From: Gemmatimonadota bacterium
GTDB lineage: Bacteria > Gemmatimonadota > Gemmatimonadetes > Gemmatimonadales > Gemmatimonadaceae
Direction: 5' to 3'
DNA: 45,517 nt
NCBI GenBank assembly: GCA_021324775.1
Contig: JAJPIM010000021.1
Location: 1-45,517 of the forward strand
Every line of letters begins with the position of its first letter. Positions within the stretch are counted from its first letter, which is position 1. Below are positions 2,646 through 40,675 of this stretch, in pieces. Made by a program: the position numbers and the translations under genes. The notes under the pieces were generated by a model. That model was not told the origin of the DNA and did no database searches. It saw only the letters and a list, made by a program, of their open reading frames with translations.

Positions 2646-3623
2646 ATGACTGGTTCTGGCGCCGGCTTCGCGCTCGTCACGGGCGCCAGCGGGTTCGTCG
2701 GCGGACACCTGGTCGAAGCGCTGGTCGCGGGCGGGTATCGGGTGCGCTGCCTCGTGCGCCCGCAGAGCGATCGCCGTTGGCTCGACAGCCTCGGGGTCAG
2801 CTATGCGGCCGGCACGGTGGAAGATGCCGGTGCGCTGCGGCGCGCGGTCGACGGGGTGGACGTCGTGTTCCACCTCGCGGCCCTCACGACGACGGCCCGC
2901 GCATCCGAATACGACAGGATCAACTACGGCGGCGTCGTGCGCCTCGTGGATGCCATGGCCGCGCGTCCCGTCAGGCTGGTCTTCTGCTCGAGCCTCGCCG
3001 CGGGAGGGCCAGCCCGAGCGGGCCGTCCGCTGACGGAGGCGGATCCGCCGGCTCCGATCGGCCCGTATGGCGAGTCGAAGCTTCGGGGTGAGCAGGTGGT
3101 GCTCAGTGGCGGCGTGCCTGCGGTCGTCGTGCGGCCATCGGCCGTGTACGGGCCGCGCGAGCGCGACATCCTGGCCGCATTCCGCCTCGCGGCGCGCGGC
3201 CTCGCGATCCGGACCGGGCCGCGGGGGCAGCAACTCGCCATGGTACACGTGGCGGACGTCGTGCGGGGACTGATCGCGTCCGCGCGGAGCGTGACCGCCG
3301 GTGGCGTCTACTACATCAACGGCGGCAACCATCCCTGGGACGACATCGTGACGGCGATGGGGCTCGCAGTCGGACGCCGCTCCCTCGTGGTTCCACTACC
3401 GGGGGTAGTGGTGCGTGGCGTGTCGTATGTCGCGCGCGAGTTTGCCCGCGTTACGAGCACCAAGGCGCTTCTCACGCCGGAGCGCGCTCGCGACATGTTG
3501 CAACCGGCGTGGATGTGCGACGATTCGCGCGCGCGCCGCGAGCTGGGCTATGCCCCGCAGATCGGCCTCACGGACGGGATGCGCTCGACGGCCGAGTGGT
3601 ATCGCTCGGCGGGGTGGCTCTAG
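2646..3623 (+). CDS. NAD(P)-dependent epimerase/dehydratase-family reductase, CerR-like
   Basis: A 325-residue extended short-chain dehydrogenase. It has the Rossmann motif TGASGFVG (residues 12-19), Ser115/Ser116 before the active site, and the catalytic YGESK pair Tyr141/Lys145. In Caulobacter the protein of this class in the ceramide locus, CerR, reduces the 3-keto group after N-acylation, and the gene order here (spt, bCerS-like, this gene) supports the same role. It starts 12 bp after the bCerS-like stop and ends 2 bp from the stop of the convergent flippase-like gene. Other extended SDR functions, such as sugar epimerase or sterol dehydrogenase, cannot be excluded from sequence alone. 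Confidence 0.8.
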   Translation: MTGSGAGFALVTGASGFVGGHLVEALVAGGYRVRCLVRPQSDRRWLDSLGVSYAAGTVEDAGALRRAVDGVDVVFHLAALTTTARASEYDRINYGGVVRLVDAMAARPVRLVFCSSLAAGGPARAGRPLTEADPPAPIGPYGESKLRGEQVVLSGGVPAVVVRPSAVYGPRERDILAAFRLAARGLAIRTGPRGQQLAMVHVADVVRGLIASARSVTAGGVYYINGGNHPWDDIVTAMGLAVGRRSLVVPLPGVVVRGVSYVAREFARVTSTKALLTPERARDMLQPAWMCDDSRARRELGYAPQIGLTDGMRSTAEWYRSAGWL

Positions 3624-3625
3624 AC

Positions 3626-4654
3626 TCAGCTCGTTTTGGGGGCGGTGTGCGCGCCGCGACGGCCGGAGACCCAGGTCAGTGTGAGGCCGATCCCGATCCA
3701 CGTGAGTTCGCGCAGGCGGCTCATGACCGACGCGTACACGCCGAGCGCCGGTGGGAGGCCGACCAATCCGAAGATGAGATAGAGTCCGCCTTCCTTCGAT
3801 CCCAGCTCGAACGGGATGAACACCGTGAGGTTCGTCGCGAGCTGCGAGAAGGCGCCGATCACGAACGCGGTGGCGTAGCCGATATGGAGGCCCATCGCGC
3901 GCGCGATGAACAGGAACTCGAACATCGCGATCATACGGCCCACTACCTCGGCGAGAATGGCGATCGTCAGCCGGCGGCGCTCCCCCTCGGTGAGCTCCGC
4001 CATCTGGTCATCGATGTGCTGCAAGGTGGGCCGCGCGGACTCGAAGCGAGCCGAATAGCGCCGGAGGATCGGGATTCGTGGCACCAGGTTGAGCGCCCGC
4101 TCGAGGAATCCGCGCCGGAAGAGCGACAAGAGGAGTGCGGCAACACCGAGCAGCCCGATCGCGGTCACGGTCAGCACGATGTCGGTCGCCGTCGTGCGGG
4201 GGATCAGCACCCACGCCACCGGCATGGCGATGACCCAGAACAGCACCTGGCCGAGCGTATGGACCACGCGGAAGCTCACGACCGACGCGGCCGCGCGGCT
4301 GGTACCGACCCAGTCCTTCGCGGCCGCGACGCGGAACGGCTCTCCACCGAGCGCAACGAACGGGGTCACGTAGTTGATCGCGAAGCTGGAGACGCTGATG
4401 GCGTACGCGCGCCAGAACGGGATCATCTTGGAGGTGGTGTTCTTCGCGGTCAGGTGGGCCCCTGCGCGGAGGAGTGTCTCCCAGGCAACGGTGTTGCTGA
4501 CATACACGAGGCCCCAGACGGCGACGATGGGGCCGAGCACCCACGCCGTGCTGCGGAGATTCCTGAGCAGTCCGTCGACGCCGGCCCGATAGAGCAGGCC
4601 CGCGAACACGACGGCTCCGAAGAGGAACACGACCAGCCGAACGCGCTTGCTCAC
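3626..4654 (-). CDS. LPG synthase TM/flippase-like membrane protein (PF03706-type)
   Basis: A 342-residue polytopic membrane protein with about eight hydrophobic segments and the features of the lysylphosphatidylglycerol synthase transmembrane/flippase-like family. These include the AINYVTPFVALGGEPFR segment and a late FIPFELGSKEGG motif near a P-x-x-G-x-K/x-E-G pattern. Such proteins move or modify lipids at the inner membrane. The GTG start is chosen because GAGGA lies just upstream, overlapping the stop of the Gfo/Idh gene (the stop is at 4662). It is the last gene of the seven-gene minus-strand unit and is a candidate translocator for the unit's lipid product. The substrate is unknown. 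Confidence 0.8.
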   Translation of the reverse strand: MSKRVRLVVFLFGAVVFAGLLYRAGVDGLLRNLRSTAWVLGPIVAVWGLVYVSNTVAWETLLRAGAHLTAKNTTSKMIPFWRAYAISVSSFAINYVTPFVALGGEPFRVAAAKDWVGTSRAAASVVSFRVVHTLGQVLFWVIAMPVAWVLIPRTTATDIVLTVTAIGLLGVAALLLSLFRRGFLERALNLVPRIPILRRYSARFESARPTLQHIDDQMAELTEGERRRLTIAILAEVVGRMIAMFEFLFIARAMGLHIGYATAFVIGAFSQLATNLTVFIPFELGSKEGGLYLIFGLVGLPPALGVYASVMSRLRELTWIGIGLTLTWVSGRRGAHTAPKTS

Positions 4655-31427: not shown

Positions 31428-31697
31428 TCCCGGGGAAGCTAGCAGGGCTACGGGACGTAGGGTTAGGGCTGGAGGCTCTGGCGCGGCCGGGTATGACACA
31501 CGGGCCGTCGTACTCCATCGACGGCAGGCCTTTTCTTCGGGCTTGGATTGGCGCCGTTGCCCGAAAAGGGTGACCTATGGTTCTCGAACGGCGCCTGCAG
31601 CCCTCGACGACAGGCGGTGGGTGGCATCGACGTGCTGCTGCGCTTCAATGCGGGCCCGCGATTGGTTACTCATCCGCGGTCTCGTTTCCGGAGAATC

Positions 31698-32450
31698 GTG
31701 GCGGTTCTCGATCGTGTCATTGTCGTGCTGCTCGAACCCCAAAACCCGGTCAACATCGCCGGGACCGTCCGGGCGATGCGAAACATGGGACTCTCATCGC
31801 TCCGGCTGGTTCGCGCGGCGGCGTACGCGCCGGAGCAGATCGAGACGATCGCGCACGATACGACGGACCTCGTCGCCGCGATCCGGCATTTCGACGATCT
31901 GGACGCGGCCCTCGCGGACTGCACCGATGTGATCGCGTTCACGGCGCGGCGCCGGGCGGCCAAGCGCACGGTCCTGACGCCCCGGGAATCGGCGGCGCGG
32001 CTGCTCTCGGGGGACGAGCGGGCGCCAGTGGCGATCCTGTTCGGCCGGGAGGACGCCGGGCTCCCGAACGAGGCGCTCGATCGGGCGCTCGGGCTGTGCA
32101 CGATCCCGACGACGACTCACGGGTCGCTCAACCTGGCTCAGGCAGTGATGGTCGCGGCGTACGAGCTGCACCTCGCGGCTGGCGACGCGACACGCCCAGT
32201 GGCGCCGCCCAAGCACGACGCGCCTCCGGCGACGGCGATGCAATTCGGACAACTCTTCGAGGATGTGGAGCGGGCGCTGGCGGCGATCGATTTCTTCAAG
32301 ACCCGATATCCCGAGCACGTGATGCGGACGGCGAAATCGCTGGCCTATCGTGCCGCGCCGACCGCGCGCGAGATCGAACTCGTTCGCGCCATGGCGATCG
32401 AGGTCTTGCGAACGCTGGAGCGTGCGCGCATCATTTCGCGCAACAGATGA
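31698..32450 (+). CDS. TrmH/SpoU-family RNA methyltransferase, TrmJ-like
   Basis: About 250 residues. The three SPOUT motifs are present: EPQNPVNIAGTVRAMRN near residue 12, FGREDAGLPNE near 117, and SLNLAQAVMVAAYE near 140, so it forms a knotted SAM-binding fold. A C-terminal helical part follows, as in TrmJ, which 2'-O-methylates tRNA position 32. The GTG start is chosen because GGAG lies 4 nt upstream and conserved sequence begins directly after it; upstream codons are not conserved-looking. The exact RNA target is not proven. Confidence 0.88.
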   Translation: MAVLDRVIVVLLEPQNPVNIAGTVRAMRNMGLSSLRLVRAAAYAPEQIETIAHDTTDLVAAIRHFDDLDAALADCTDVIAFTARRRAAKRTVLTPRESAARLLSGDERAPVAILFGREDAGLPNEALDRALGLCTIPTTTHGSLNLAQAVMVAAYELHLAAGDATRPVAPPKHDAPPATAMQFGQLFEDVERALAAIDFFKTRYPEHVMRTAKSLAYRAAPTAREIELVRAMAIEVLRTLERARIISRNR

Positions 32451-32452
32451 CC

Positions 32453-32470
32453 TTGTGAAAAAGTTCACAA
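32453..32470. promoter_or_regulatory. Perfect dyad upstream of actA matching the Rex operator pattern
   Basis: TTGTGAA (32453-32459), AAAG, TTCACAA (32464-32470) is an exact inverted repeat with a 4-nt spacer. One CC/GG step on each side extends the arms to 9 bp (32451-32472). This is the published Rex operator form TTGTGAA-N4-TTCACAA. It also fits the CRP pattern TGTGA-N6-TCACA. It starts 3 bp after the trmJ-like stop and lies about 40 bp before actA, well placed to control the alternative complex III operon. Confidence 0.75.
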
Positions 32471-32512
32471 GGCGATTGGTTCACCCGTGAGCCTACACGA
32501 CGGATCGATTTG

Positions 32513-33301
32513 ATGCCGGGACGGAGGACGTGGGCGGCGATACCGATGTTTATCGCCGTAGCTGGTGTGGTCGCCGCGCTGGCGGCATACCAGGGCGCTT
32601 CGTCCCAGCAAGTCGCGAAAGTGGCGCCGGACACGGTGATCACGCACGACCCCGGCCCCGGTCCCTGGGGATATCACGGCGCGTCGTCGGAGCAGGGCTC
32701 CAGTCCAGTGCAGCCGATCAAGTTCCCCCACCCGAAGCACGTCAAGGGTCTGGGGATGAACTGCGTCTATTGCCACTATACGGCGAACAAGTCGATGGAT
32801 CCGGGGCTGCCGGCGATGAGCACCTGCATGGGATGCCATCTGTCGACGTATTCCCTCGCCAAGAAGCCCGAGATCGTCAAGCTGACCGCGTACTGGAACA
32901 AGCAGCAGCCGATTCCCTGGGTACGCATTCATAAGCTGCCGGAGTACGTCCATTTCCCGCACATGCGGCACGTGAACGCCGGCGTGACCTGCCAGACGTG
33001 CCACGGGCAGATCCAGGAGATGTACCAGGTCTATCAGTACGCGTCGCTCAACATGGGCTGGTGTCTCAACTGCCATGTGAACGGATACAGCCCGGCCGAG
33101 GGGGACGCAGCCGCTGGGTCGGCGCGCGACTATGGGCCAAAGGGCGCGAGTTCGCAGCCGAATACGGGTACGATACCCGTTGCCGCGAAGGACGCTGGCG
33201 CACCGCCTGCGCTGGGCGCGGCCGTCCGGTTCAACATTGGACCGCCACTGAGCGACGCACGCCACCGGGCGCGCTACGATTGCAGCACATGCCACTACTA
33301 G
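32513..33301 (+). CDS. actA: Alternative complex III subunit ActA, pentaheme cytochrome c
   Basis: A 262-residue protein with an N-terminal membrane anchor (about 8-26) and five CxxCH haem-binding sites at 84-88, 105-109, 160-164, 184-188 and 257-261. Extra His residues (for example in FPHPKH and FPHMRH) can be the distal ligands. It matches ActA, which passes electrons from the complex's iron-sulfur chain to periplasmic acceptors. It is the first of six act genes in canonical order. An in-frame TTG immediately precedes the ATG at 32513. No strong ribosome-binding site is visible. Confidence 0.95.
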   Translation: MPGRRTWAAIPMFIAVAGVVAALAAYQGASSQQVAKVAPDTVITHDPGPGPWGYHGASSEQGSSPVQPIKFPHPKHVKGLGMNCVYCHYTANKSMDPGLPAMSTCMGCHLSTYSLAKKPEIVKLTAYWNKQQPIPWVRIHKLPEYVHFPHMRHVNAGVTCQTCHGQIQEMYQVYQYASLNMGWCLNCHVNGYSPAEGDAAAGSARDYGPKGASSQPNTGTIPVAAKDAGAPPALGAAVRFNIGPPLSDARHRARYDCSTCHY

Positions 33302-33456: not shown

Positions 33457-36400
33457 GTGAGCGCCACCGCTGAGCCGGACGCCGCACCGGCGGCGAGTGG
33501 CGTCAAGCGCCGCGATTTCCTCAAGATCCTGGGGGCGGGAAGCGCCGTCACGGCGAGCGTGGGGTGCAGCACCAAGGGTGTCGGGCACCTCATCCCGTAC
33601 CTCGTGTCGCCGGACCAGACGGTGCCGGGCGTTTCGAACTATTACGCGAGCACGTGCCGGGAGTGTGCCGCCTCGTGCGGGCTGCTCGTGGAGACGCGCG
33701 ACGGGCGGGTCATCAAGCTCGAGGGAAATCCTGCCCACCCGCTGAATCGGGGGGCGCTGTGCGCGCGGGGGCAGGCGGCGCCGCAGGGGTTGTACAACCC
33801 GGACCGGTACCGCGAGCCAATGGTGCGGAAGGACGGGAAGCTCGTGCCCACGACGTGGGACGATGCGCTCCACCTGCTCGCGCAGAAGCTCGGCGAGGTC
33901 CGCAGCCGTAACCAGGCCGGGAACGCCGCGTTCGTGAACCTGCACGAGTCGGGCACCTTCCCCGGATTTCTCGACGAGTGGCTCGCCGCGTACGGGATGC
34001 CCGCGCATCTGTCGTACGATCCCGACCTGCCATCCGCCGTCCTCGCCGCGAACCGCGAGAGCTACGGGGTCAGTTGGCCGGGTCTCGACTTCTCGGCCGC
34101 TCGCGTCATCGTTTCGTTCGGCGCGGACTTCCTCGACGGCTGGGGCGCGAGCGTGCCGCAGCAGCTCGGCTGGGCGGACGCGAGAGCGAAGCTCGCCGAT
34201 GCGCCACGGATGATCTACATCGGCGCCCGGCGCTCGCTGACTGGTCTCAACGCCGACGAGTGGATTCCCGCCAGGCCCGGTTCCGACGTCGTCATTGCCA
34301 ACGCGTTGTTGGGTACTCTCGGACATGCAACCGGCGTCACGATGGCCCAGGCTGCGACCGCGAGCGGCGTGGATGCGGCGGTGCTGGAGCGGCTGGCGTC
34401 GGCGCTCGCGCAATCGAAGCCCAGTCTCGTGCTCGCGGGCGGGAGTGGCGTCGATGCACTGGATCTCGCGCACGCGGTGAATGCGATCAACCAGGTGGCG
34501 GGCAACGTCGGCCAGACCGTCAAGCCGGCGGAAGCGATCACCGCGTTCGAGCACGCCGCGACGTATGCGGATGTGCGCGACCTGGCGGACCGGATGCGAA
34601 AGGGTGCGGTGCCACTGCTCATGGTGCGTGGGGCGAATCCGGCGTTTTCCACGCCGCCCGCGCTCGGCTTCGCAGCCGCGATGGAGAAGGTGCCCTTCAA
34701 GGTCAGCTTCTCGAGCTATCCGGACGAGACGGCGGAGCTCTGCGATCTCGTGCTACCCGACCATCACGCGCTCGAGAGCTGGGGCGAGGCCGCCCCAGTC
34801 GCGGGGACGATCTCGCTGCAGCAGCCGGGGATGGATCCGGTGTTCGCGAGCCGCCAGACGGCGGACGTGCTGGTGTCGCTGGCGAAGGGCGACCCGGCGC
34901 TCGCCGCGAAGTATCCGTGGCCTGATTACCGGACGTGGTTGATCAGCCGGTTCCCGGGTGCGGCGACCGGGTTCACCAACGCGCTCACCACGGGCGTCGC
35001 GGAGAGCGGAGAGCCGGCGGCTCCGGCGAAGCCTGCGCCAGCCAAAGCGGCCGCCACCGAGAGGCAGCCCGCGAAGGCCGCGCCATTCAAGGCTGCGCCG
35101 CCGGTGCCCGGCGCGGGACTCGATCAGAGTCACGGCGACTTCTACCTGGTGATCTATCCGTCGCCGGCGCTCGGTGACGGCCGGGGGGCGAACAAACCCT
35201 GGCTCCAGGAGCTGCCGGACCCTGTCACCAAGATCGTCTGGCAAACCGTCATCGAGATTCATCCCGAGACGGCGCGGAAGCTCGGCGTGGAGGCCGGGGA
35301 TCACCTGAAAGTCGAGACTGACACCGGCTTGATCGAGGCGCCGGCGTTCGTGTACCTGGGGATCCGTGCGGACGCCGTGGCGATATCACTGGGCCGCGGC
35401 CACACGGCGTACGGGCGATATGCGCGCAATCAGGGACTGAGCCCGCTGGGTCTCATCCCGACGGCTGAAGACCACGCGGGGGCGTTGGCGCTGACCTGCT
35501 CCAAGGCCCGGGTGAGCAAGGCGGCGGACCATACGCTGCTCGTTTCCACCGAAGGATCGGCGCGGCAGCATGGCCGCGGGATCGCACGGGCGATCACCGT
35601 GACCGAGCTGGCGTCCGCTCCGCCGCCGGAGACGAATCCCGTGGCGGGGGCCGCCGCGCCCGCGGGCGGTGGCACCGCGGAGCCGGCGGAAGAGGAGATG
35701 CCGGGCGACGCGTCTCACGCGTTCCTGCCGGGCCTCCGGTCTCCGGTCGCCAACGACGCGCAGGGCAATTATGGCGACCCCGATTCCAAGTCGCTCGGCA
35801 TGTACGCCGCCGACCACTGGAGTGGCATGGCGAAGCGGCGGTGGGCCATGACCGTCGATCTGGCTCGGTGTACCGGGTGCTCGGCGTGCGTGACGGCGTG
35901 TTACGCCGAGAACAATATCCCGACCGTGGGTGCGCCCTGGCAGGGGGCGCAGGTGCTGCCCGACCATACGGGCTTCGGCGCCAACATCCTGCGCGGCCGC
36001 GAGATGGCGTGGATCCGCCTGGAGCGGTATTTCGAGGGTGCGAACCACGAAGACGGGCGCTTCGATCCGGATTTCGAGACGCGGTTCATTCCGATGCTGT
36101 GCCAGCAGTGCGGGAACGCACCGTGCGAGCCCGTGTGTCCGGTGTACGCCACCTACCATTCGCCCGACGGACTGAACGTGCAGGTCTACAACCGCTGCGT
36201 CGGGACGCGGTACTGCTCGAACAACTGCCCGTACAAAGTGCGGTACTTCAACTGGTTCGGGTACGGAGAGAGCGACCGGATCCAGTATGCGTTCCCGGAG
36301 CCGTTGAACTGGCAGCTCAACCCGGACGTGACCGTGCGGGGCAAGGGTGTCATGGAGAAGTGCACCTTCTGCCTGCAGCGGATTCGTGAGGCCGAGCATC

Positions 36401-36636
36401 GGGCGCGGCTCGAGCATCGCGAACTGGAGCCCGATGAGTTTACGGTCGCGTGTGCGCAGGCGTGTCCTTCGCGGGCGATCACATTTGGCGACGCGGCGGA
36501 TGAACGCTGGTCGATGACCAAGATGCTCGAGGATCGCCGGGCGTACCACGTGTTCGAAGAACTCAACACGTTTACCGCGGTGGTGTATCTGAAGCGAATC
36601 ACTCATCCGGCGCCGGCGGCGCCGGCGACGACATAG
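33457..36636 (+). CDS. actB: Alternative complex III subunit ActB, molybdopterin-type plus Fe-S fusion
   Basis: A 1059-residue protein. Residues 18-23 (RRDFLK) form a Tat signal, with a possible lipidated Cys37 in SVGC. The first two-thirds is a molybdopterin-oxidoreductase-like domain; in known ActB proteins this part lacks the cofactor. A Pro/Ala/Lys-rich linker lies near 515-550. The C-terminal third is a ferredoxin-like domain with Cys clusters near 804-815 (CTGCSACVTAC), 881-893 (CQQCGNAPC), 913-924, 968-971 (CTFC) and 1000-1005 (CAQAC), enough for four Fe-S clusters. It carries electrons from quinol to the haem subunits. The GTG start follows the 155-bp repeat-containing gap after actA. 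Confidence 0.95.
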   Translation: MSATAEPDAAPAASGVKRRDFLKILGAGSAVTASVGCSTKGVGHLIPYLVSPDQTVPGVSNYYASTCRECAASCGLLVETRDGRVIKLEGNPAHPLNRGALCARGQAAPQGLYNPDRYREPMVRKDGKLVPTTWDDALHLLAQKLGEVRSRNQAGNAAFVNLHESGTFPGFLDEWLAAYGMPAHLSYDPDLPSAVLAANRESYGVSWPGLDFSAARVIVSFGADFLDGWGASVPQQLGWADARAKLADAPRMIYIGARRSLTGLNADEWIPARPGSDVVIANALLGTLGHATGVTMAQAATASGVDAAVLERLASALAQSKPSLVLAGGSGVDALDLAHAVNAINQVAGNVGQTVKPAEAITAFEHAATYADVRDLADRMRKGAVPLLMVRGANPAFSTPPALGFAAAMEKVPFKVSFSSYPDETAELCDLVLPDHHALESWGEAAPVAGTISLQQPGMDPVFASRQTADVLVSLAKGDPALAAKYPWPDYRTWLISRFPGAATGFTNALTTGVAESGEPAAPAKPAPAKAAATERQPAKAAPFKAAPPVPGAGLDQSHGDFYLVIYPSPALGDGRGANKPWLQELPDPVTKIVWQTVIEIHPETARKLGVEAGDHLKVETDTGLIEAPAFVYLGIRADAVAISLGRGHTAYGRYARNQGLSPLGLIPTAEDHAGALALTCSKARVSKAADHTLLVSTEGSARQHGRGIARAITVTELASAPPPETNPVAGAAAPAGGGTAEPAEEEMPGDASHAFLPGLRSPVANDAQGNYGDPDSKSLGMYAADHWSGMAKRRWAMTVDLARCTGCSACVTACYAENNIPTVGAPWQGAQVLPDHTGFGANILRGREMAWIRLERYFEGANHEDGRFDPDFETRFIPMLCQQCGNAPCEPVCPVYATYHSPDGLNVQVYNRCVGTRYCSNNCPYKVRYFNWFGYGESDRIQYAFPEPLNWQLNPDVTVRGKGVMEKCTFCLQRIREAEHRARLEHRELEPDEFTVACAQACPSRAITFGDAADERWSMTKMLEDRRAYHVFEELNTFTAVVYLKRITHPAPAAPATT

Positions 36637-36647
36637 CGAGGCGGCGC

Positions 36648-38105
36648 ATGGCCACGAGCGCACCTCCGTATCCCGTCGCGGGCGGCGACGGCATGCCGCA
36701 TCCCAACGTCGCGTCCGCGGGCCGGCGGCTGCCCGCCGTGAAGGATTACGAGCAGGTGACCCGTGAGATCATGGGCACCCTCCATCCGACGCTGGCATGG
36801 TTCATCGGATTGGGGATCGCGATCGCGTTCTTGCTGCTGGGCGTGGCGTCGTGGATGTATCAGATCCACGAGGGCCTGGGGGTCGCCGGGTACCATCCGC
36901 CGGTGATGTGGGCGGTCTACATCGTGAGCTTTGTCTTCTGGGTCGGTATCGGGCACGCGGGCACCCTGATCTCGGCCATTCTCTATCTGTTCCGCGCGGG
37001 CTTCCGGACGACCATCTACCGGACCGCGGAAGTCATGACCGTCTTCGCCGTGATGACGGCGGGGCTGTTCCCCGTGCTGCATCTCGGGCGGCCGTGGAAG
37101 TTCTTCTGGTTGATTCCGTATCCGCACTGGCGGTGGATCTGGCCGCAGTTCAAGAGTCCGCTGGTGTGGGACGTGTTCGCCGTGCTCACCTATCTGACCA
37201 TCTCGGCGACGTTCCTCTACGTGGGGCTGCTGCCGGACATCGCGGTCCTGCGCGACCACGACCGGAACCCCATCCGGAAGAAGATCTTCGGGGCGTTGTC
37301 GCTCGGGTGGCGGAACAGCGATCGCGAGTGGCGCCATTTCGCTCGCGCGTACCTGTTCCTGGCCGCGCTGGCGACGCCGCTGGTGCTGTCGGTGCACTCA
37401 GTCGTGTCCTTCGACTTCGCGATGGCCAACACGCCGGGGTGGCACGCGACGATCTTCCCGCCGTACTTCGTGGCCGGGGCGATCTTCTCGGGTATGGGGA
37501 TGGTGTTCACCATCATCATCCCGCTCCGCAAGTGGTTCGGGCTCAAGCGCTATGTGACGCTGAACGACCTGGACGCCGGCGCGAAACTCTGCCTGTTCAC
37601 GTCGATGGTCGTCGGGCTCGCGTACCTCTCGGAGTTCTACGTCGGCTGGTATTCGGGGAGCGCGATCGAGAAAGAGTACTGGTGGAATCGCGTGTTCGGG
37701 CAGTGGTGGTGGGCGGCGTGGATCATGCTGATCTGCAATGGCGTGCTGCCGCTGTCGCTCTTCTGGCAGAATCTCCGGCGCAACACGACCTGGCTGTTCA
37801 TCCTGTCGCTGTTCATCAACCTGGGGATGTGGTTCGAGCGGTTCGTCATTATCGTGCCGTCCCTGTCGCACGAGTTCGAGCCGTGGCAGTGGGCCGGGTA
37901 CCAGGCGACCTGGGTGGACATCGCCATTCTGAGCGGCAGCTTCGGATGGTTCTTCATGTGGTTCCTGCTGTTCGTCAAGCAGCTTCCGATCATGGCGATC
38001 TCCGAGATCAAGGAGATCGTGCCGCCGAAGCGGCGTCCGCCGCAGACGCGCTCGCCGGTCGCCGCACGTCCCGCGCTGGGGACCGCAGGCGGGGGTGACG
38101 ACTAG
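36648..38105 (+). CDS. actC: Alternative complex III subunit ActC, NrfD-like quinol-binding membrane protein
   Basis: A 485-residue polytopic membrane protein of the NrfD/PsrC family with about ten hydrophobic helices spread from residue 45 to 455. It contains the early MYQIHEGLGVAGYHPPVMWAVYI helix region and an HAGTLISAILYLFR segment typical of ActC. It provides the menaquinol-oxidising site and possibly proton translocation. GAGG at 36638-36641 lies 6 nt before the ATG. The stop shares a base with the actD GTG. Confidence 0.94.
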   Translation: MATSAPPYPVAGGDGMPHPNVASAGRRLPAVKDYEQVTREIMGTLHPTLAWFIGLGIAIAFLLLGVASWMYQIHEGLGVAGYHPPVMWAVYIVSFVFWVGIGHAGTLISAILYLFRAGFRTTIYRTAEVMTVFAVMTAGLFPVLHLGRPWKFFWLIPYPHWRWIWPQFKSPLVWDVFAVLTYLTISATFLYVGLLPDIAVLRDHDRNPIRKKIFGALSLGWRNSDREWRHFARAYLFLAALATPLVLSVHSVVSFDFAMANTPGWHATIFPPYFVAGAIFSGMGMVFTIIIPLRKWFGLKRYVTLNDLDAGAKLCLFTSMVVGLAYLSEFYVGWYSGSAIEKEYWWNRVFGQWWWAAWIMLICNGVLPLSLFWQNLRRNTTWLFILSLFINLGMWFERFVIIVPSLSHEFEPWQWAGYQATWVDIAILSGSFGWFFMWFLLFVKQLPIMAISEIKEIVPPKRRPPQTRSPVAARPALGTAGGGDD

Positions 38106-38605
38106 TGCGCGGCGTGCTGGGGACCTTCCGCGAAGTCGACGCGACGATCGAGGCGATCCGGGCGCTCAAGCGGCAGCCCTCGTCGTCCGTGACGGTGTAC
38201 ACTCCGGCTCCCGACCATGCGATCGCCGACGCGATCGATGCGCCGGTGAGCGTCGTACGGCGGTTCGCGCTGATCGGCGGCCTCTGTGGCATGACGTTCG
38301 GGTACTGGATCCCGATCTACATCTCGAAGTGGTGGCCACTGGTGGTGGGAGGGAAGGCGGTGCCGTCGTGGATCCCGTATACCATCATCAGTTTTGAACT
38401 CATGGTGCTGATCGGAGGCCTGTCGACGGTGTTCGGGTTGTTCATCGTCGCGCGGCTGCCCGACCTTCGGCTGACCGTCGGCTATGATGCCCGATTCAGC
38501 GACGGCGACTACGGGGTGTGGGTCGAGTGTTTGCCGGAGCAGGCGAAAGCGGTGTCGGACACGCTGCGCCGCAGTGGCGCGGTGGAGGTGCGGAATGCGC
38601 CGTAG
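38105..38605 (+). CDS. actD: Alternative complex III subunit ActD (DUF3341)
   Basis: A 166-residue membrane protein with two transmembrane helices (about 55-78 and 95-120) between a short N-terminal FREVDATIEAIRALK domain and a C-terminal soluble part ending in GDYGVWVECLPEQA, which is the standard DUF3341/ActD plan. It is a structural subunit of the complex. The GTG start shares a base with the actC stop, and the end overlaps actE by 11 bp. Confidence 0.93.
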   Translation: MRGVLGTFREVDATIEAIRALKRQPSSSVTVYTPAPDHAIADAIDAPVSVVRRFALIGGLCGMTFGYWIPIYISKWWPLVVGGKAVPSWIPYTIISFELMVLIGGLSTVFGLFIVARLPDLRLTVGYDARFSDGDYGVWVECLPEQAKAVSDTLRRSGAVEVRNAP

Positions 38606-39350
38606 TCTGCCGCTTGCTGTGGGTTGTGCTGTCACCCATAACGTACGCCGCGTCGCTGGCGCGATCGTCCTCGCAGGCGCGATGGTCGCGGCCCAGGGGT
38701 GTTCGTGGTTCACGGCCTTCGTGGAGCAGCCCAAGATCGACCCGTGGGAAGTCGTGTCGTTCCCGGGGAAGACGCTGTTGCCTTCGCGCGGCAATCCGCA
38801 ATACTCCGTACCGATCACCGGCACCTTCGTGTCGGGCCTGCAGGTTTCGTACGCCCCGTTGCCGGGTGTCGTGGATTCGATGTCGGCGATCCAGAATCCG
38901 ACCCCGCCGAACGAGGCGTCGCTGGTGAACGGACGGAAGCTGTTCCAGATCAACTGCTCGCCGTGTCACGGCGTCGCCGGCCTCGGGGATGGTGCAGCCA
39001 CCAAGTTTGGTGTGACCGGGATCAACCTGACGGCGGATCACGCGAAGGGGCTGACGGATGGCTATATCTGGGGCATGATCCGCAACGGCCGCGGTGCGAT
39101 GCCTACATACAATCGCATCGAGGAGATGGACCGCTGGGACGTCGTCAACTACATCCGCGGGTTGCAGGGCAAGCTGCCGCAGCCGGTGCCGACGGGTCCG
39201 GTGGGCTATCCGGGCCAGACGGGTGATGCGCTGCCGGGTGCCACGATGACCGCGCCGACGCGGCCCGTGCCGTACTACCGGGGGCCGGGGTCACTGGACT
39301 CGATCCATGCCATCCGGGCGCAGGTGCCGGGGGTGGGGGGAGCGCAGTGA
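38595..39350 (+). CDS. actE: Alternative complex III subunit ActE, monohaem cytochrome c
   Basis: A 251-residue protein with one CxxCH site at 121-125 (CSPCH) and a downstream GAMPTYN Met as the likely second haem ligand. The N-terminus has a hydrophobic stretch ending AAQG-Cys36, a plausible lipobox. A Pro/Gly-rich tail ends the protein. It matches ActE, the monohaem cytochrome subunit on the periplasmic side. It overlaps actD by 11 bp and its stop overlaps the actF GTG. Confidence 0.94.
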   Translation: MRRSLPLAVGCAVTHNVRRVAGAIVLAGAMVAAQGCSWFTAFVEQPKIDPWEVVSFPGKTLLPSRGNPQYSVPITGTFVSGLQVSYAPLPGVVDSMSAIQNPTPPNEASLVNGRKLFQINCSPCHGVAGLGDGAATKFGVTGINLTADHAKGLTDGYIWGMIRNGRGAMPTYNRIEEMDRWDVVNYIRGLQGKLPQPVPTGPVGYPGQTGDALPGATMTAPTRPVPYYRGPGSLDSIHAIRAQVPGVGGAQ

Positions 39351-40675
39351 GCGCGCACGAGAACAATGAGCCGGTGTCGCGGGAGGATCTGGCGGCGCTG
39401 GCCGCGCGCCCGGTGCCTCCGGGGGCACGGAAGGCTGCGACCGGCGCGACGATCATTGGGCTGGTGGTGTTCATCGCGTATCTGTTCATCGATCCCGACC
39501 GGGCGTGGCGCGCGTTCCACTTCAACTGGTGGTTCTTCGCGTTCATCTCGTGGGCGGGCGTGACAGTGGCCGCGGTGCAACGGATCGTGACGGCCCGCTG
39601 GTCGCGCGAGGTGGTGCGGTTCCTCGAGGGCTACGTGGCGTTCCTGCCCCTCGCGTTCGTGGACCTGGTCCTGATCATGACAGTGGGCCGGTCGCACATT
39701 TTCCCGTGGACGCACCTGGCGCCGCCCGGGCCGGAGAAGCGGTTGTTCCTGGCGCCGGCGTTCCTGATTCCTCGCGACCTCATCATGTTCGCGATCGTGA
39801 CCGGGCTGGCGCTGTGGTTCATCTACCTGTCTGTCCGGCTCGATGTCGGGGTCGTGGCGGAGGCCGGCGCGAATTGGGCGAAGGGCATCCGCGCGCGGAT
39901 GCGCGAGGGATTCGGCGATGAACGGCGCGAGCTGCATACGACCCATTCGCGGCAGGGCGTGATCGCGGTGTTCATGGTGCTGGCGTTCGGCTATTTCGGC
40001 GAGGTCATGTCCTTCGACCTGTCGATGACGCTGGACATGCACTTTCAGAGCACGCTGTACGGGTGGTGGTCGTTTATGACGGCGTGGCTGGGATCCCTGG
40101 GTTCGTTTGCACTGCTCACCATGTGGTGGCGGAAGACGCTTCGCGCGGAGTCGCTGATCGTCGAGCGGCACTTCCACGACATCGGGAAGTTCTGTTTCGC
40201 GTTCACGGCGTTCTGGGGTTATCTCACGTTCGGGCAATACCTCGTGATGTGGTACGGCAACATGGGCGAGGAAACCCACTGGTTCCGCCTGCGTCTGATT
40301 CACCCGTGGCAGCCCATCACGACGGCGGCTGTCGTGCTGATCTTCCTGTTCCCGTTCTTCGGGTTGCTTGGCCGGGCCGCCAAGGTGTATCTGCCGGCGC
40401 TCACGTTCTTCACGGCGAGCAGTGTCATCGGGATCTGGCTCCAGCGGTACAGCGAGATCTACCCGGCGCTGTACGGCCGGGTGGACCATGCGCCGCTCGG
40501 CGTGCCGGAGCTGGGTGTGATGCTTCTTTACCTGGGCACCTGGGGCCTCTGCTACTTCGCCTTCATGGACGCGTTCCCGAAGATGCGAATCGTGCTCCAG
40601 ACCTCGCCCTACCGTGATGAGATCCAGGTACCGGTGGATCCGCGGACCATGGAGCCGTTGCCCGCGACCGAATAG
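39347..40675 (+). CDS. actF: Alternative complex III subunit ActF, second NrfD-like membrane protein
   Basis: A 442-residue polytopic membrane protein with about ten helices between residues 25 and 425, a distant paralogue of ActC. Landmarks are VGRSHIFPWTHLAPPGPEKR in a loop, the FGYFGEVMSFDLSMTLD helix and the KFCFAFTAFWGYLTFGQYLVMWYGN helix. It forms the second half of the membrane core with ActC. The GTG start overlaps the actE stop. It ends the act operon; no cytochrome oxidase genes follow. Confidence 0.94.
   Translation: MSAHENNEPVSREDLAALAARPVPPGARKAATGATIIGLVVFIAYLFIDPDRAWRAFHFNWWFFAFISWAGVTVAAVQRIVTARWSREVVRFLEGYVAFLPLAFVDLVLIMTVGRSHIFPWTHLAPPGPEKRLFLAPAFLIPRDLIMFAIVTGLALWFIYLSVRLDVGVVAEAGANWAKGIRARMREGFGDERRELHTTHSRQGVIAVFMVLAFGYFGEVMSFDLSMTLDMHFQSTLYGWWSFMTAWLGSLGSFALLTMWWRKTLRAESLIVERHFHDIGKFCFAFTAFWGYLTFGQYLVMWYGNMGEETHWFRLRLIHPWQPITTAAVVLIFLFPFFGLLGRAAKVYLPALTFFTASSVIGIWLQRYSEIYPALYGRVDHAPLGVPELGVMLLYLGTWGLCYFAFMDAFPKMRIVLQTSPYRDEIQVPVDPRTMEPLPATE

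Follow-up and report, generated by a model that had tools for sequence, protein, structure and literature searches.

Which regulator, if any, reads the inverted repeat that stands before the alternative complex III (act) operon of this Gemmatimonadaceae genome? An earlier sequence-only reading had taken the repeat for a Rex operator, with a site for a CRP/FNR-family protein as the alternative. Searching the window (the whole 45,517-nucleotide stretch that was analysed), we found the perfect 18-bp dyad that this reading had described, TTGTGAAAAAGTTCACAA, of the form TTGTGAA-N4-TTCACAA with the spacer AAAG, at 32453-32470; two further pairs per side (CC...GG) extend it to 22 bp, which accounts for the coordinates 32451-32472 given earlier. 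The 62-bp gap in which it had been placed is borne out by the gene ends, running from the upstream stop at 32450 to the actA ATG at 32513. Pfam and structure matches identify the genes that follow as a genuine alternative complex III operon with the gene set actABCDEF, in which ActA is a multihaem cytochrome, ActC is NrfD, ActD is hit by PF11821, and ActB and ActF match the solved complex structures 6btm, 6f0k, 8k9e and 6lod. The features of the locus are as follows.

31548..32450, + strand: upstream gene for a SpoU/TrmH-type RNA methyltransferase (PF00588); its 3' end contains the predicted act promoter
32406..32411, + strand: predicted act -35 element TTGCGA, from the family motif fit, within the upstream gene's end
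32429..32434, + strand: predicted -10 element CATCAT, from the family motif fit, 17 bp past the -35 element; predicted start at ~32441
32453..32470 (extended dyad 32451-32472), no strand: candidate Rex operator, exact match, kept in 45/56 family genomes
32513..33301, + strand: actA, multihaem cytochrome c subunit
33457..36636, + strand: actB, molybdopterin-type and Fe-S subunit, with matches to alternative complex III structures
36648..38105, + strand: actC, NrfD-type membrane subunit
38105..38605, + strand: actD (PF11821)
38484..39350, + strand: actE, monohaem cytochrome c; coordinates of the listed open reading frame, whose real start is probably later, after actD
39347..40675, + strand: actF, matching the ActF chains 6btm_F, 8k9e_F, 6f0k_F and 6lod_F

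The dyad is the window's only match at up to three mismatches, a loose threshold at which shuffled sequences average 0.32 matches. From base composition, 8.5e-6 exact copies are expected per window and 7.8e-4 per 4.19-Mb genome. A chance origin was rejected on the basis of this expectation and the shuffles. Across 59 genomes of the family, the soil-dwelling Gemmatimonadaceae, a scan at up to one mismatch gave 255 matches, compared with 4 for a reversed control pattern.

The sequence-only reading depended on there being a rex or crp homologue in the genome, and both kinds were found. One clear rex gene lies on contig C34, and two CRP/FNR-like regulators are also encoded. The C34 protein scores above the curated NF003992 cut-off and aligns over its full length with the solved Rex proteins of Thermotoga maritima and Thermus. 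Its N-terminal winged-helix domain carries Arg/Lys base-reading residues and is accompanied by a Rossmann domain, the organization expected of Rex. The residues with which T. maritima Rex reads bases, Arg48, Lys49, Arg60 and Gly61 (PMC8836258), are all conserved in the alignment. The motif is not found before the source genome's own rex; it immediately precedes rex in at least 16 relatives (for example G039, G087, G060, G116, G075, G132, G129, G134 and G144).

Comparison of act promoters showed that close relatives keep the dyad, as the sequence-only reading required. Of the 56 family genomes in which a usable match to ActA was found, 45 have the site directly 5' of actA, in 40 exactly and in 5 at one mismatch. 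Near-invariant half-sites around a free four-base spacer are what a dimeric DNA-binding protein leaves as its footprint. The motif's distribution also follows that of rex. In a sample of 132 genomes with completeness of at least 90%, the median among rex carriers is 4 sites, with none in 3 of 120, while 10 of the 12 genomes lacking rex have none (Fisher p 6e-11 against rex carriers, uncorrected for kinship). The losses of rex fall in several separate lineages (genus g78 of family f1, g27 of f2, g36 and g37 of f7, and family f10), and in three of the genomes without rex (G135, G153 and G072) the act operon is retained and its site is gone.

These patterns bear directly on whether the dyad is instead a TGTGA-N6-TCACA site that couples act to cAMP or another signal through a CRP-like protein. 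The earlier remark that the same bases fit this pattern is correct, and candidate CRP/FNR-like proteins are encoded, but any perfect Rex site includes the TGTGA-N6-TCACA core. Near-invariance extends to the pairs that are specific to Rex, AA/TT on the inside and TT/AA on the outside. Moreover, HTH_Crp_2 proteins persist in five genomes without rex (G072, G135, G153, G110 and G040), each of which has zero or one site. Given the motif before relatives' rex, its co-loss with rex and the survival of CRP-type regulators where sites have been lost, the evidence points to Rex, not CRP, as the reader of the site. CRP-like sites elsewhere in the source genome also differ in form from the act dyad, with TGTGATCTATCTCACA and TTGTGACGCAGATCACAA adjacent at locus L008. 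On this evidence the dyad is almost certainly a Rex operator rather than a CRP site, so that the Rex half of the original alternative stands and the CRP half, which we regard as very improbable, is disfavoured. The L008 dyads themselves are neighbouring CRP-type repeats at 3620-3717 (C39:44699), between OmpA-type and SDR genes, and suggest the form that real CRP sites take in this genome.

Some genomes depart from the overall pattern. In two of low completeness, G125 and G136, the act site is present and a search for rex found none, and G113 (family f1, genus g4; a 99% complete draft) has five Rex-type sites outside act with rex not detected. The missing rex genes of all three are probably assembly gaps; for G113, a recent loss would be the alternative. 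Beyond the family, act is hardly ever preceded by the site: the class's other families mostly lack it, and in other phyla there is mostly nothing before act. In the sister family f2, act has weak sites before it in G081 (TCGTGAAAAGTTTCACAT), G012 and G024, and a plastocyanin-like gene lying ~10 kb from actA (17 kb in one genome) has exact ones. The Eisenbacteria locus L090 has a 2-mismatch site at rex and a weak 3-mismatch site at act. In the Anaerolineales, four loci (L142, L152, L153 and L154) share a conserved palindrome, TCGTGCA-N4-TTCACGA, with three mismatches, directly past the act -10 element. This is possibly a Rex-type site in Chloroflexota; the rex genes of Anaerolineales bear a different palindrome, of the TTGTGC-N6-GTACAA type.

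An expectation-maximisation fit to 44 family act promoters returned the element TTGCGN and, after a spacer of 17 bp, a -10 element (NANNNT) whose fixed bases are A at -11 and T at -7; the operator comes ~17 bp after that. The distance between promoter and operator is near-constant across the family. Such a promoter is kept both in G072, which lacks rex, and in its relative G144, which has rex and lacks the operator. Based on the fitted promoter, the operator would occupy approximately +13 to +30 of the act transcript. Streptomyces avermitilis cydA1 offers a precedent, as its Rex operator likewise lies past the start of transcription (PMC5355995).

A further reading makes the repeat a hairpin in the leader RNA of act, or lets it terminate the gene upstream. 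Its 9-bp stem does fold well (-12 kcal/mol, z -4.2). However, neither a T-run nor a terminator lies 3' of the stem, and the stem shows no co-variation: its bases stay the same from genus to genus, and variation is seen in the loop. The identical sequence also occurs before unrelated genes and is gone where rex is gone. We therefore rejected the hairpin and the terminator, to which we give next to no weight.

Further copies of the motif, which the sequence-only reading had proposed to look for, do occur in the source genome. Allowing up to two mismatches gives seven sites, compared with one for the reversed pattern:

act: exact
5' of atpA-atpG: 1 mismatch
gap between clpP and clpX: 1 mismatch
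5' of nuoA: 2 mismatches
interval between the SDR gene and the OmpA-type gene: 2 mismatches; CRP-like in form
two remaining sites: within coding regions or at their edge

With sites before nuoA, act and atpA-G, the motif is common to complex I, alternative complex III and ATP synthase in this genome. In relatives, sites precede rex, act, atpA-G, atpI/Fo, nuoA, NDH-2, etfB, a plastocyanin/azurin-family gene and clpX. For nuo, atp, ndh2 and rex, targeting by Rex has been proven in S. avermitilis, whose Rex also bound operators carrying one to three mismatches (PMC5355995). That the motif precedes rex in relatives, vanishes without rex and marks the classic nuo/atp/ndh target set strongly supports the first option of the sequence-only reading, a Rex operator.

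We also observed Rex-type sites in other settings. The plastocyanin/azurin-family lipoprotein gene has such a site in many genera (L199, L204, L213, L216, L219, L229, L232, L235, L268, L270 and L271), and its blue-copper product is a plausible candidate for the electron acceptor of alternative complex III. The site before clpX, the gene for a protease subunit, recurs in several genera (L005 at C8:30947, L210, L217 and L234). In genus g31 of family f7, G006 and eight other genomes have 14 to 30 Rex-type sites each, where most relatives have 2 to 6. These sites (loci L285-L299) precede varied genes, including thyX-like, pyrF-like, ABC transporter and rex genes, and the Rex regulon of this genus is apparently expanded.

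The best explanation for the act dyad, and one that we hold with high confidence from comparative sequence evidence, is that it is the operator of the NAD(H)-sensing repressor Rex encoded on C34 and would form an NADH-responsive switch on act. At low NADH, a Rex dimer loaded with NAD+ would bind at approximately +13 to +30 of the transcript. Positioned just past the TTGCGN-N17-NANNNT promoter, it would block either the start of RNA polymerase or promoter clearance. When NADH accumulates, through oxygen shortage or fast substrate oxidation, NAD+ would be displaced, Rex released and alternative complex III produced.

Rex might also bind here and yet matter little, with act mainly controlled otherwise, either because Rex is redundant with another regulator or because it is active only under rare conditions. 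Eight rex-carrying relatives do have act without the site, and the Rex-bound atp operon of S. avermitilis appears to have other control too (PMC5355995). In contrast, placement past the predicted start suits repression, and the persistence of a near-perfect sequence in dozens of genera speaks for strong selection. We consider so minor a role unlikely.

Rex-type sites stand before act and most other respiratory and ATP-making genes of the family, so the cell probably tunes its respiratory chain by NADH level. Besides act, the family has the switch at complex I, NDH-2, ETF, both halves of ATP synthase and the plastocyanin-like carrier, and Rex appears to set the capacity of the respiratory chain as a whole. 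More tentatively, one NADH-sensing repressor may govern nearly the whole of oxidative phosphorylation in Gemmatimonadaceae (complex I, NDH-2, ETF, alternative complex III, the blue-copper acceptor and both ATP synthase operons) and Rex control of act may have arisen, or persist, in Anaerolineales as well, a combined proposal that we think somewhat doubtful.

The sequence-only reading knew of no described regulator for an act operon. Our literature search, which was non-exhaustive and did not extend to the Ravcheev 2012 survey, likewise found none, nor anything relevant on Rex together with act or with Gemmatimonadetes. That survey reportedly did not include Gemmatimonadota among its phyla. As far as the search went, regulation of alternative complex III levels in bacteria is apparently undescribed, and we found no earlier description of a Rex regulon in Gemmatimonadota. 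Rex operators and nuo, atp and ndh targets are already known; act as a target is apparently new. The act operon now has a named candidate regulator, an exact operator, a predicted promoter and a candidate signal (the NADH/NAD+ ratio). A Rex regulon is also outlined for a phylum whose regulation has received little study, and genomes that have lost rex provide natural controls.

Several known systems can be set beside this one. The general Rex consensus of Ravcheev 2012, as quoted in PMC5317091, is TTGTGAANNNNTTCACAA, and the act dyad matches all 14 of the bases specified there. The genome of Caldithrix abyssi contains both a predicted Rex site and an act operon; there, however, the site is reported before rex and hydrogenase genes, and the excerpted text makes no link to act (PMC5317091). 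The S. avermitilis Rex regulon shares the operator consensus, the targets nuo, atp, ndh2 and rex, and release by NADH, which here is a prediction. It differs in belonging to another phylum and in the quinol-oxidising step reported for it, which is cytochrome bd in S. avermitilis and alternative complex III here (PMC5355995).
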